Assembly (NCBI RefSeq): GCF_900108115.1
Contig: NZ_FTPU01000003.1
Location: 1-64,000 of the forward strand
Direction: 5' to 3'
DNA from: Epilithonimonas bovis DSM 19482
GTDB lineage: Bacteria; Bacteroidota; Bacteroidia; Flavobacteriales; Weeksellaceae
Length of the DNA: 64,000 nucleotides
Both the position numbers and the translations under genes were made by a program. Under the pieces are notes generated by a model that ran no database searches, was not told the DNA's origin, and saw only the letters and a list, made by a program, of their open reading frames with translations. Shown here one piece after another: positions 14,269 through 40,798 of the stretch (the first letter of the stretch is position 1; each line of letters begins with the position of its first letter).

Positions 14269-14275
14269 ATTTATC

Positions 14276-14786
14276 ACCACAAAAGTCACAACAGTTTTTT
14301 TCATTATTAAGTTATAAAATGGAATAAAGCTAAAGCATAAATGATGATAACACAATCCTATTTGACTGATTTAACCTACAAAATAAATGGTGGATTGTTG
14401 GAAAGTGTTTATTCTGAAGCTTTGAAACAGGAGTTAGCTTTGAGAAATATCAATTTCAAAGCTGAATTTAAAATTGATATTTTTTATAAAAGTAAAATGT
14501 TAAATTGTGATTTCCGATGCGATTTTTTAATTGAAGAAATAATTGTATTAGAAATAAAATCTGTCAAAAATTTTGATGAAATCCACAAAGCACAATTGTT
14601 AAATTATATGGGATTATTAAAGGTTCCGAAAGGAATACTTATTAATTTTAATGTGAAAAATATTGTTCACGAAGGACAACAAACGTTTGTAAATAAATAC
14701 TACGAACAATTGATGTAGGTGAATACCTTATTTTTACTTTAGAACGAAATCATATTATTAAATATATCTTTTATGACTTTTGTGGT
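14276..14786 (+). mobile_element. GxxExxY element A, bounded by 13 bp inverted repeats
   Basis: ACCACAAAAGTCA at 14276-14288 is repeated exactly in inverse orientation at 14774-14786. The left end continues CAA(C)AGTTTT and the right end is preceded by CTTTTA, both as in element B at 38595-39155. The 511 bp unit contains a single gene, 65 bases after the left end. No target duplication is evident. Mobility is inferred from two independent copies with the same ends and cargo. Confidence 0.7.
14341..14718 (+). CDS. GxxExxY protein (PD-(D/E)XK nuclease-like, PF13366), internally deleted
   Basis: The 125-residue protein has the motif GLLESVY and the nuclease-like core CDFLIEEIIVLEIKS (Asp, then E-x-K). 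Compared with the paralogue at 38648, it lacks 11 residues (ACIEVHKILGP) just before GLLESVY, an in-frame loss that removes the conserved Glu and His there, so activity is doubtful. The remaining sequence is close to the paralogue throughout, ending FVNKYYEQLM against FVNKYYETLR. The family is small, multicopy in many genomes and of unknown role. The gene lies inside inverted repeats and has no functional link to the GH3 or bshA genes beside it. Confidence 0.88.
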   Translation: MMITQSYLTDLTYKINGGLLESVYSEALKQELALRNINFKAEFKIDIFYKSKMLNCDFRCDFLIEEIIVLEIKSVKNFDEIHKAQLLNYMGLLKVPKGILINFNVKNIVHEGQQTFVNKYYEQLM

Positions 14787-14807
14787 AAAAAAAATAATTC
14801 GTTAAAA

Positions 14808-37347: not shown

Positions 37348-38598
37348 ATGAAATCCTTTATAAACTATCCTTCAGACTCCGATTTTTCGATTTATAATAT
37401 TCCGTTTGGCGTTTGTGTTTTCAATAAAGAATATATTGCTAATGCAACGCGGATTGGTGATATTGTTATTGACTTGGCAACATTATTTGACCTTGGCTAT
37501 TTTGAAGATATCAAAGGTTTGAGCGACAATGTTTTCGAAGGTTACACGATTAATGAATTTATAGAGCTCGGTAAACCGGTGACCAATCAGGTTCGTGAAA
37601 GAATTCAGGAATTGCTGTTGGAAGATTCTTTATTATCGAAAGATGAGAGAGCTTTGGAAGAATGTTTTTATAATTTGGATGAAATCCAGATGATGATGCC
37701 TTTGCACATCCCAAATTACACCGATTTCTACAGCAGTATCCAGCACGCCACCAATGTAGGAATGATGTTCCGTGACCCCGCGAATGCATTGTTGCCAAAC
37801 TGGAAACATCTGCCGGTTGGCTATCACGGGCGTGCGTCGTCTATTGTTTTGTCAGGGATTGATATTACAAGACCTTGCGGACAAATCAAACAGATTGATT
37901 CTGATCAACCAATATTCAGCGCATCAAAACAACTCGATTTTGAACTGGAAATGGCTTTTGTGTTGAATAAAAATACAGATTTAGGAGAAAGGATTTCTGT
38001 TTCCGAAGCAGAAGATGCAATTTTTGGGATGATGATTTTCAATGATTGGTCGGCGAGAGACATCCAAAGCTGGGAATATGTTCCGTTGGGTCCATTTTTA
38101 GGGAAAAACTTCGGTTCGTCCATTTCGCCTTGGATTGTAACTTTGGAAGCTTTGCAACCATTTAAAACTCAATCTCCAAAGCAAGAACCGGAAGTTTTAG
38201 ATTATTTGAAATTTGAAGGTGATCAAAATTATGACATCAATCTTCAAGTTTATCTAAAACCTCAAAATTCAGAAGACAATCTGATCTCTGAGAGCAATTA
38301 CAAATTGATGTATTGGAATATGTTTCAGCAATTGGCGCATCACACGGTGAATGGCTGTAATGTGGAAGTTGGTGATGTTTATGCCAGTGGGACGATCTCG
38401 GGAGAAGGTGAAAAATCCTATGGTTCTATGCTGGAACTGACCTGGAGAGGAACAAAACCTTTGCAACTGAAAGACGGAATTGAAAGAAAATTCATAGAAG
38501 ATGGCGATACTGTGACAATGAAAGCCTGGTCAGAAAAAGATGGTATCCGGGTTGGTTTTGGGGAAGTGACTGGGAAGATTTTACCTGCCAATTATTAA
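37348..38598 (+). CDS. fahA: Fumarylacetoacetase
   Basis: The 416-residue enzyme hydrolyses fumarylacetoacetate to fumarate and acetoacetate, the last step of tyrosine breakdown. Features are DFYSSIQHATNVGMMFRD (catalytic His near 130), LPVGYHGRASSIV, the metal site ELEMAFVLNK and MIFNDWSARDIQSWEYVPLG then FLGKNFGSSISPW, and a C-terminal GTKPLQLKDGIERKFIEDGD. The last bases of its TAA stop are the first bases of the inverted repeat of GxxExxY element B, so the gene end abuts that insertion. Confidence 0.96.
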   Translation: MKSFINYPSDSDFSIYNIPFGVCVFNKEYIANATRIGDIVIDLATLFDLGYFEDIKGLSDNVFEGYTINEFIELGKPVTNQVRERIQELLLEDSLLSKDERALEECFYNLDEIQMMMPLHIPNYTDFYSSIQHATNVGMMFRDPANALLPNWKHLPVGYHGRASSIVLSGIDITRPCGQIKQIDSDQPIFSASKQLDFELEMAFVLNKNTDLGERISVSEAEDAIFGMMIFNDWSARDIQSWEYVPLGPFLGKNFGSSISPWIVTLEALQPFKTQSPKQEPEVLDYLKFEGDQNYDINLQVYLKPQNSEDNLISESNYKLMYWNMFQQLAHHTVNGCNVEVGDVYASGTISGEGEKSYGSMLELTWRGTKPLQLKDGIERKFIEDGDTVTMKAWSEKDGIRVGFGEVTGKILPANY

Positions 38599-39155
38599 CC
38601 ACAAAAGTCACAAGAGTTTTATTTTTAATATTTAAGTTCAGAAAAGGATGATTACTCAAGCTTATATTACAGATTTGACTTATACAATAAATGGAGCTTG
38701 CATCGAAGTTCACAAAATTCTCGGTCCAGGATTATTGGAAAGTGTTTATCATAAGTGTTTGGAAGAAGAATTTAGACTAAGAAATATTAACTTTCAGTCT
38801 GAGCTGAAAATTCCAATAATTTATAAGGGAAAAGAAATAAACTGTGAATTTTTCTGTGATTTTCTAATTGAAGACTTGATCGTTCTTGAACTAAAATCTG
38901 TTTCATCAATTACAGATATTCATAAAGCTCAGATTATCAATTATATTAATCTTATGAAAAAACCAAAAGGAATTTTAGTGAATTTTAACGTTAAAAACTT
39001 GTATCACGATGGTCAAGAAACTTTTGTGAATAAATATTATGAAACCTTGCGTTAAACCAATTCATTAAAAATACTTTGATTGTCGAAACTTTTGTGTGCT
39101 TTTTACTAATTCAATATTAAACCTAATAAAAAACTTTTATGACTTTTGTGGTTAA
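38595..39155 (+). mobile_element. GxxExxY element B, bounded by 16 bp inverted repeats
   Basis: TTAACCACAAAAGTCA at 38595-38610 is repeated exactly in inverse orientation at 39140-39155. The left end continues CAAGAGTTTTA (element A: CAACAGTTTTT) and the right end is preceded by CTTTTA as in element A. The 561 bp unit holds one gene. Its left end supplies the stop codon of fahA and its right end the first codons of the frame at 39139, so it was inserted exactly between two genes. Confidence 0.75.
38648..39055 (+). CDS. GxxExxY protein (PD-(D/E)XK nuclease-like, PF13366), full length
   Basis: The 135-residue protein is a complete family member. It has INGACIEVHKILGPGLLESV (with the conserved Glu and His and the GxxExxY motif GLLESVY) and CDFLIEDLIVLELKSVSSI, the Asp / E-x-K core of a PD-(D/E)XK nuclease fold. 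It ends GQETFVNKYYETLR. Family members are small, recur many times per genome and have no established role. The inverted repeats around it suggest it is the cargo, and perhaps the driver, of element B (inference). The start follows the left repeat by 37 bases. Confidence 0.92.
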   Translation: MITQAYITDLTYTINGACIEVHKILGPGLLESVYHKCLEEEFRLRNINFQSELKIPIIYKGKEINCEFFCDFLIEDLIVLELKSVSSITDIHKAQIINYINLMKKPKGILVNFNVKNLYHDGQETFVNKYYETLR

Positions 39156-39972
39156 GTCTATAACTCCTTCCGATATTTCTGCAATGCAGCTTCAGCAAGT
39201 AATGCAAACTGCCATTGCGCCGCGGCCAATTGCTTTGGCAAGTACGATTAACAGCAAAGGAAAAATCAATCTTTCGCCGTTCAGTTTCTTCAATATGTTC
39301 AGCACGGTTCCGCCGGTTGTGATTATTTCGCCTTCCAGAAGAGTCCGAGATAATACGACGAAACATACTCTTGAAAACTTGAAAGAAGTCCCGGAATTGG
39401 TCATCGGTAATGTTAATTTCGAGATGGTTCAGCAGGTTTCCCTGGCCAGTACAGAATACGAAGACGGCGTGAATGAATTCCTCAAATCCGGATTAACAAT
39501 GAAACCTGCCGCCATCGTAAAACCACCTTTGATTGCTGAATCTCCCGTTAATTTCGAATGTAAAGTTCTCGAAATTAAATCTCTTGGAAATTTTGGCGGA
39601 GCCGGGAATCTTGTAATTGCAGAAATTGTTAAAATTCATATCAATGAAAAATACCTGGACGAAAACGGGAATCTTGACCAGAAACAATTGGATCTGGTAG
39701 CGAGATTGGGAAGTAATTTCTACTCCAGGAATAATGAGAATAATATCTTCGAAGTGCCTAAACCGCTGGTTACAAAAGGGATTGGTTACGACAAATTGCC
39801 TTATGAAATCAAATCCAGCGATATTTTCACAGGGAACGATTTGGGAATGCTGGCCAATGTAGAAATTTTGCCCATTGGTGACTTTTCTTCGGAAAAAGAT
39901 GTACATTTAGTGGCACAAAAGTTTTTGAAAACTAACGAAATCAAAAGAGCCTGGGAAATTCTTAAACTTTGA
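39139..39972 (+). CDS. Flavin reductase-like FMN-binding protein
   Basis: The 277-residue protein has the flavin-reductase split-barrel fold: TAIAPRPIALASTINSKGKI near 23, NLSPFSFFNMFSTVPPVVII, and GNVNFEMVQQVSLASTEYE. Such enzymes bind FMN and may reduce it for a partner oxygenase. The first codons (MTFVVK) are read from the inverted repeat of element B. Homologues usually begin with a short MK-like lead directly before SITPSDIS, so the native start was probably replaced or is the GTG at 39148. It is downstream of the tyrosine genes and may once have been in their transcript. Confidence 0.82.
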   Translation: MTFVVKSITPSDISAMQLQQVMQTAIAPRPIALASTINSKGKINLSPFSFFNMFSTVPPVVIISPSRRVRDNTTKHTLENLKEVPELVIGNVNFEMVQQVSLASTEYEDGVNEFLKSGLTMKPAAIVKPPLIAESPVNFECKVLEIKSLGNFGGAGNLVIAEIVKIHINEKYLDENGNLDQKQLDLVARLGSNFYSRNNENNIFEVPKPLVTKGIGYDKLPYEIKSSDIFTGNDLGMLANVEILPIGDFSSEKDVHLVAQKFLKTNEIKRAWEILKL

Positions 39973-40253: not shown

Positions 40254-40565
40254 CTACTTTTCTCTATTGATTTTAATGGGATTTTGGCGTGTGTCGAAAA
40301 TATCAACGATTTCAATCCTATTCCTTTCTTTATTAAACCAATAAATTATTTTGTAATTTTTGGAAACCAAATATCTGAAATTTTCTTTTCTGTCAGAGAG
40401 TAAATCTTCTTTTTGTCCTATTTTGATTTGAAAATCTAAAATGTTTGTTTGTTCAATAATTTCGGTAATCAATTTTTGAGCAATTTTAGGGCTTGCTTTT
40501 AATTTATAATAATCGTAAATATTCCTTAACTCTCTTTTAGCGAATGCTGTCCAAAATATTTTCAT
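40254..40565 (-). CDS. RelE/ParE-type toxin
   Basis: The 103-residue protein starts at the ATG at 40565 (MKIFWTAFAKRELRNIYDYY); the TTG two codons upstream is less likely. The RelE/ParE fold is shown by W-x-x-x-A-x-x-x-L-x-x-I-Y-x-Y at the start and by FRYLVSKNYKIIYWFNKERN and EIVDIFDTRQNP at the end. Such toxins cut ribosome-bound mRNA or poison gyrase. The ATG shares one base with the stop of the upstream antitoxin gene, the usual coupling of such modules. Confidence 0.88.
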   Translation of the reverse strand: MKIFWTAFAKRELRNIYDYYKLKASPKIAQKLITEIIEQTNILDFQIKIGQKEDLLSDRKENFRYLVSKNYKIIYWFNKERNRIEIVDIFDTRQNPIKINREK

Positions 40566-40798
40566 TACCAATGTTTGATTTCAGAAAGCAGTTCATTTGA
40601 TTCTGTTACTTTATCGTTTTTAGAATCTTCTAATGAAACGTCTATGCGGTAATTTAATTCTTCAATCGTAAATGGGTTCAATTCTTTCTCAGATTGTTTG
40701 GCTTTTTTCAATAGTTTTTCGAATTGAGAAATTAATTCCTCGCTTTGAAGATTCATAAAAGCCTGAACAAATTCTATTTTTCTCGATTCGATATTCAT
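40565..40798 (-). CDS. Antitoxin of the RelE/ParE-type pair
   Basis: The 77-residue, charged, mostly helical protein (MNIESRKIEFVQAFMNLQSE, then ELISQFEKLLKKAKQSEKE, then NPFTIEELNYRIDVSLEDSK) matches small Bacteroidetes antitoxins found before ParE/RelE genes. It contains no clear DNA-binding domain, so autoregulation is uncertain. Its TAA stop overlaps the toxin ATG by one base. I see no strong promoter just upstream, and the ABC gene ends 57 bases away on the same strand. Confidence 0.82.
   Translation of the reverse strand: MNIESRKIEFVQAFMNLQSEELISQFEKLLKKAKQSEKELNPFTIEELNYRIDVSLEDSKNDKVTESNELLSEIKHW

Follow-up and report, generated by a model that had tools for sequence, protein, structure and literature searches.

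Putative compact mobile elements of Epilithonimonas bovis and other Bacteroidota place a GxxExxY gene between subfamily-specific inverted ends

The GxxExxY gene that separates fahA from a flavin-reductase-like gene in Epilithonimonas bovis probably belongs to a compact mobile-type element, in which a PD-(D/E)XK nuclease would mobilize units that carry its own ends, a partnership resembling that of REPINs and RAYTs. The window, that is, the whole stretch of 64,000 nucleotides of this genome (G000) that was analyzed, contains this element and a second one of the same subfamily. Their features and those of their neighbors are as follows.

37348 to 38598, plus strand: fahA (fumarylacetoacetase; TIGR01266, E 1.4e-162), upstream neighbor, co-directional
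38595 to 38625, plus strand: left inverted-repeat arm, TTAACCACAAAAGTCACAAGAGTTTTATTTT, which holds the fahA stop codon
38648 to 39055, plus strand: GxxExxY/PDDEXK_3 putative nuclease gene, 135 aa (TIGR04256, PF13366)
39125 to 39155, minus strand: right inverted-repeat arm, which holds the ATG and first codons (MTFVVK) of the flavin-reductase-like frame
39139 to 39972, plus strand: flavin-reductase-like gene (PF01613, E 3.5e-14), downstream neighbor, co-directional
14273 to 14300, plus strand: left arm of the second element (ATCACCACAAAAGTCACAACAG...)
14344 to 14718, plus strand: second GxxExxY gene (MITQSYLTDLTYKINGG..)
14762 to 14789, minus strand: right arm of the second element, just 5' of bshA (start 14808)

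The unit at 38595-39155 is ~560 bp in size. The original prediction described it as bounded by an exact inverted repeat of 16 nt, which is indeed present, with the correction that each arm extends to 31 nt (complementarity is 87% overall and perfect over the terminal 16 nt, TTAACCACAAAAGTCA) and that such ends are a family-wide trait. The left arm consists of two units of ~9-10 nt, CCACAAAAGT CACAAGAG, and paralogous elements have the same ends. Within the window the exact 16-mer occurs only as the two arms of this unit; one or two mismatches bring in a second pair at 14273 and 14789, around the other GxxExxY gene, and up to three mismatches give 5 matches where 1.5 are expected. Profile searches found no DDE/D transposase in the unit, whose sole gene is the PDDEXK_3 gene, in agreement with the earlier description of a single nuclease-like gene without a transposase. 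The codons said to lie within the repeats were both located: the fahA stop (TAA) occupies 38596-38598, inside the left arm, and the flavin-reductase frame opens at 39139 with an ATG inside the right arm. In sister species fahA stops with other codons and the next gene opens with an MKTII-type sequence rather than MTFVVK, and because the relatives differ in this way both junction codons are element sequence. Just past the flavin-reductase region, on the minus strand at 40254-40798, two adjacent small frames resemble a RelE/ParE-type toxin and an antitoxin.

The 135-aa protein scores far above the curated cut-offs of both of its families (TIGR04256, E 6e-40, 136 bits against 35; PF13366 PDDEXK_3, E 1e-38, 133 bits against 22). 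Its name-giving motif reads G28LLE31SVY34, and G28, E31, Y34, D71, and E81-x-K83, which include the PD-(D/E)XK catalytic residues, are conserved among GxxExxY proteins. The solved fold nearest to its AlphaFold model (pLDDT 93.6) is that of SSO0001, a Cas4 nuclease (PDB 4ic1; E 6e-3, TM 0.53). Because the catalytic residues are conserved and the predicted fold is nearest to SSO0001, the protein is most likely an active PD-(D/E)XK nuclease. Although the predicted fold is thus like that of the Cas4 and RecB-type enzymes, the protein is much smaller, its sequence similarity to them is marginal, and no CRISPR genes adjoin it. GxxExxY proteins are encoded in 188 of 296 sampled Bacteroidia genomes; no relative was found on viral contigs with the query used. 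In the open-access literature we found no paper that gives GxxExxY a function or links it to repeats, nor any that mentions PDDEXK_3 or TIGR04256; the name GxxExxY turns up in two papers, neither of which deals with repeats, and PF13366 in one.

Inverted ends accompany most of these genes. It had been proposed that GxxExxY loci be collected and searched for conserved ends near the gene, and in genomes of the order the left-versus-right inverted match exceeds the 99th percentile of shuffled sequences at 71 of 93 loci, as compared with 8.9% of mismatched left-right pairs; about a quarter of the order's loci have no detectable inverted repeat. Among 77 further loci, nearly all from Bacteroidota, 39 pass the same test, as do up to 27% of mismatched pairs, the latter because one subfamily shares one repeat. 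The architecture recurs on plasmids of Bacteroides and Bernardetia, as well as in genomes listed under Chlorobiota and Marinimicrobia. The Gemmatimonadota are mixed, with a strong inverted repeat at one Gemmatirosa plasmid locus and not at others, and a Sphingomonas locus has units on its left side only. The long inverted repeat around the GxxExxY gene of the Gemmatirosa plasmid (L317) is made of a different iterated unit, GGACTGAAGAA.

Each end consists of two to four CRCNVAK-type units placed ~10 nt apart. The CRCNVAK unit is enriched about 10-fold in the 50 nt on either side of the gene, lying on the plus strand to the left and on the minus strand to the right, and its spacing peaks at 10 nt, or about one helical turn. 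Each subfamily has its own version: MITQSYLTDLTYKINGACIE occurs with AACCACAAAAGTCACAAAAG, MTQKQITELTYKILGACIEV with AACCACATAGRCACATAG, MTENEISYIVRKAIFNVYNG with TCTCGCAGATTTTGCNGATTTAGCAGAT, and others behave likewise. When only pairs of loci with unrelated flanks are compared, end similarity climbs with protein identity (Mantel test, Spearman rho 0.168 against a maximum of 0.057 in 300 permutations), and the ends of nearest protein neighbors are more alike than those of random loci (p 2e-8). We infer from these correlations that GxxExxY proteins are specific for their own ends.

The same ends are also found without the gene. In the E. bovis genome the 15-mer CCACAAAAGTCACAA has 10 exact occurrences, two of them at GxxExxY genes, and with two mismatches it has 56 matches as opposed to 17 when the pattern is reversed. 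Eight or more loci are palindromes of 71-190 bp that share the ends of the CCACAAAAGTCACAA elements and lack the gene. One palindrome, taken from the fahA junction of a sister species, has relatives in 21 of the 23 genomes of the genus. Across the 296 Bacteroidia genomes, the pattern CRCAGAGNNNCRCAGAG, which represents unit pairs, is present in 65 and its reversed control in 0; it occurs in 56 of the 188 genomes with GxxExxY and in 9 of the 108 without (Fisher p 9e-6, a statistic that ignores phylogeny). The gene-less palindromes have no match in Rfam. Short AT-rich repeats are common, and one might on that account have put the repeats beside this gene down to chance, but the signal stands far above the shuffled, cross-pair, and reversed-pattern controls; this explanation is already refuted and its probability is negligible.

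The window's genome encodes seven GxxExxY genes in all. The second gene in the window lacks a short stretch before GLLESVY that its orthologs have, and it is possibly defective or inactive. The remaining genes include some with inverted flanks of other sequence, for example CGCAAAGGCG, and one further gene (L001; G000:C33:38326-38676) is interrupted by an in-frame TGA. When the copies within each of 12 genomes were compared pairwise, no two gene-bearing ones at separate sites proved near-identical.

Comparison with close relatives, which had been suggested as a way to find the empty site, supports the view that the units are gained and lost as wholes, since empty, full, deleted, gene-less, and nested states are all seen at orthologous junctions. 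The fahA/flavin reductase junction is empty in G013, G002, and three other genera, holds a gene-less palindrome in six species and the window's element in G000, and in G004, G011, G017, and G019 is occupied by a different GxxExxY element whose protein is only ~61% identical. At the bshA site, where the window's second copy lies, five species have a full element and six are empty, G002 and G013 have an internally deleted copy that retains the first GxxExxY codons, and several species have a gene-less copy in which a palindrome of another subfamily is nested. Five of the sufB/sufC junctions are empty and others hold two different subfamilies. One gene-less site is empty in five species and elsewhere carries palindromes of four subfamilies; at another, the flanking genes abut without a gap when the site is empty. 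Reuse of a site by different subfamilies (fahA, sufB/C, bshA, fec, and the gene-less site with four subfamilies) was considered as a sign of strong target choice and set aside, because the copy numbers may allow coincidence.

Some of these gaps have other contents as well. The empty junctions of the L287 site in G014, G003, G020, and G021 (L338-L341) hold TTTTTGTGGTTCC (TTTTCGTGGTTCC in G020), which looks like the outermost part of a right arm and may have been left behind by a lost element. In sister species the sufB/sufC gap also houses unrelated small genes, some of them toxin-antitoxin-like (L216, L219, L220-L224, L229), and in eight species the fahA gap contains a small lipoprotein-like gene; both gaps appear to serve as general landing places.

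The target duplication that was expected at the empty site was not visible: neither the copies in the element's own genome nor the orthologous empty junctions have a clear one, but the insertions are old and AT-rich. GxxExxY might also be a passenger in a MITE that is moved by a conventional transposase encoded elsewhere in the genome. Inverted ends and gene-less copies do resemble a MITE family, yet this explanation is very unlikely: the ends follow the GxxExxY subfamily, the same architecture recurs from Bacteroidota to Marinimicrobia, and no target duplication is visible. The GxxExxY units share with insertion sequences and MITEs a single gene between terminal inverted repeats, internally deleted gene-less derivatives, and nesting; they differ in having no DDE, HUH, or recombinase transposase and in their strong placement by stop codons between co-directional genes.

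At 58 of 63 independent sites between co-directional genes, GxxExxY points in the same direction as its neighbors (p 1.7e-12). The upstream stop codon lies inside the left arm or no more than 30 nt away at 65 of 77 loci, not all of which are independent, and the first unit begins within 20 nt of that stop at 16 of 30 independent sites. Selection, given that insertions elsewhere would be harmful, explains this clustering as well as active targeting does. It was originally proposed that ends bearing both a stop and a start codon render insertion at gene borders harmless. The part concerning the stop codon holds up, as left arms do cluster at the upstream stop; the part concerning the start codon does not extend beyond the fahA/flavin-reductase junction, counterexamples being the window's second copy and the sufB/sufC site, where the downstream gene has an ATG of its own that lies beyond the unit. 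Provision of a start codon thus seems particular to the one junction and not a general rule.

Many copies have been passed on vertically in fixed positions, and synteny of most sites extends throughout the genus. At paaJ, the identity of G000 to G004 and G017 is 99-100% in the GxxExxY gene and 98-100% in the noncoding left end, whereas it is 86-91% in the flanking coding DNA. The block of 98-100% identity starts ~50 nt outside the left end and tails off over the initial ~100 nt of the gene that follows, and the sufB/C site has a similar pattern. The paaJ pattern amounts to recent site-faithful transfer through recombination, as in homing, although ordinary recombination of a segment could also give such a tract. 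One might suppose that the nuclease mainly cuts element-free or differently occupied alleles of a junction, that double-strand-break repair then copies the unit with short flanks, and that moves to new sites are rare. The identical blocks and the general synteny speak for this homing-type scheme, which we nevertheless regard as unlikely given that the same ends lie at many unrelated sites in one genome, that gene-less copies have spread too, and that the junctions of different sites have no obvious common recognition sequence. Homing endonuclease elements are similar in their compact nuclease gene and, apparently, in site-faithful transfer between species with a tract slightly longer than the element; in contrast to them, the GxxExxY units have inverted ends and many dispersed copies, lie in no intron or intein, and encode no LAGLIDADG, GIY-YIG, or HNH enzyme.

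Long-lived GxxExxY copies have dN/dS values of 0.06-0.11, indicative of strong purifying selection, and broken copies exist alongside them. It follows that the gene is kept by selection at some stage of its life cycle. Such selection suggests a benefit to the host and argues against a purely parasitic gene, so that of the earlier notion of a selfish element the gain and loss of the unit as a whole is borne out and the word "selfish" is doubtful for the gene. It could even be that GxxExxY has a cellular role, for example in the control of recombination, and that it binds to the units, whose spread has another cause. Low dN/dS, co-directional placement in operons, and vertical inheritance would all fit; nonetheless, we consider a host benefit quite improbable as the full account, for by itself it leaves unexplained the gain and loss of whole units, the two-ended gene-less copies, and the nested and pseudogenized copies.

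The mobile-type element that we favor finds its closest parallel in REPIN/RAYT systems, in which dispersed intergenic palindromes are formed by inverted pairs of units, with several classes that each have a cognate nuclease gene (Bertels and Rainey 2011, PMC3116915). In both cases, dispersed extragenic palindromes match the repeat that flanks the gene and nonautonomous copies outnumber the gene. RAYTs are Y1/HUH-type tyrosine transposases, whereas the GxxExxY unit has a PD-(D/E)XK enzyme and no cognate Y1 (HUH) transposase; moreover, its ends are arrays of units phased at ~10 nt, and these ends enclose the gene. GxxExxY units would work like REPIN/RAYT systems without being members of them, because the enzyme is unrelated. 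The nuclease would most likely recognize its subfamily's units from a single face of the double helix and cut at them or close by, after which either the whole unit or a palindrome that has its ends and lacks the gene would be copied into gaps between co-oriented genes by a stop codon. Alternatively, spread could occur as recombination re-copies a unit between species at the same site. Internal deletion would give rise to the gene-less copies. This reading draws on the inverted ends and their covariation with the protein, the gene-less copies, the empty and occupied orthologous sites, the enrichment of unit pairs in genomes that have the gene, the site-faithful transfer, and the conserved catalytic residues and nuclease fold. 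What weighs against it is that neither a target duplication nor an exact target was definable, that near-identical gene-bearing copies at separate sites were not seen within a genome, that many copies are inherited vertically, that purifying selection points to a benefit for the host, and that about a quarter of the order's loci have no recognizable inverted repeat.

A broader proposal, plausible and put forward tentatively, is that GxxExxY proteins are the mobilizers of a previously unrecognized, phylum-crossing class of elements: they would read the helically phased ~10-nt units of their own ends and co-evolve with them, seed gene-less palindromes by stop codons, and re-enter the same sites across species. 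If this is true, the class would explain the CCACAGAG/CGCAAAG-type palindromes that are widespread between the genes of many bacteria. The large family of GxxExxY units is apparently undescribed, and it provides a possible source of the abundant palindromes of intergenic DNA and suggests that REPIN-like elements evolved independently. The pairing of subfamily with palindrome makes the orphan GxxExxY family a testable system of nuclease and target, and its natural series of nuclease and recognition-unit pairs may reveal how a PD-(D/E)XK protein shifts its DNA specificity.
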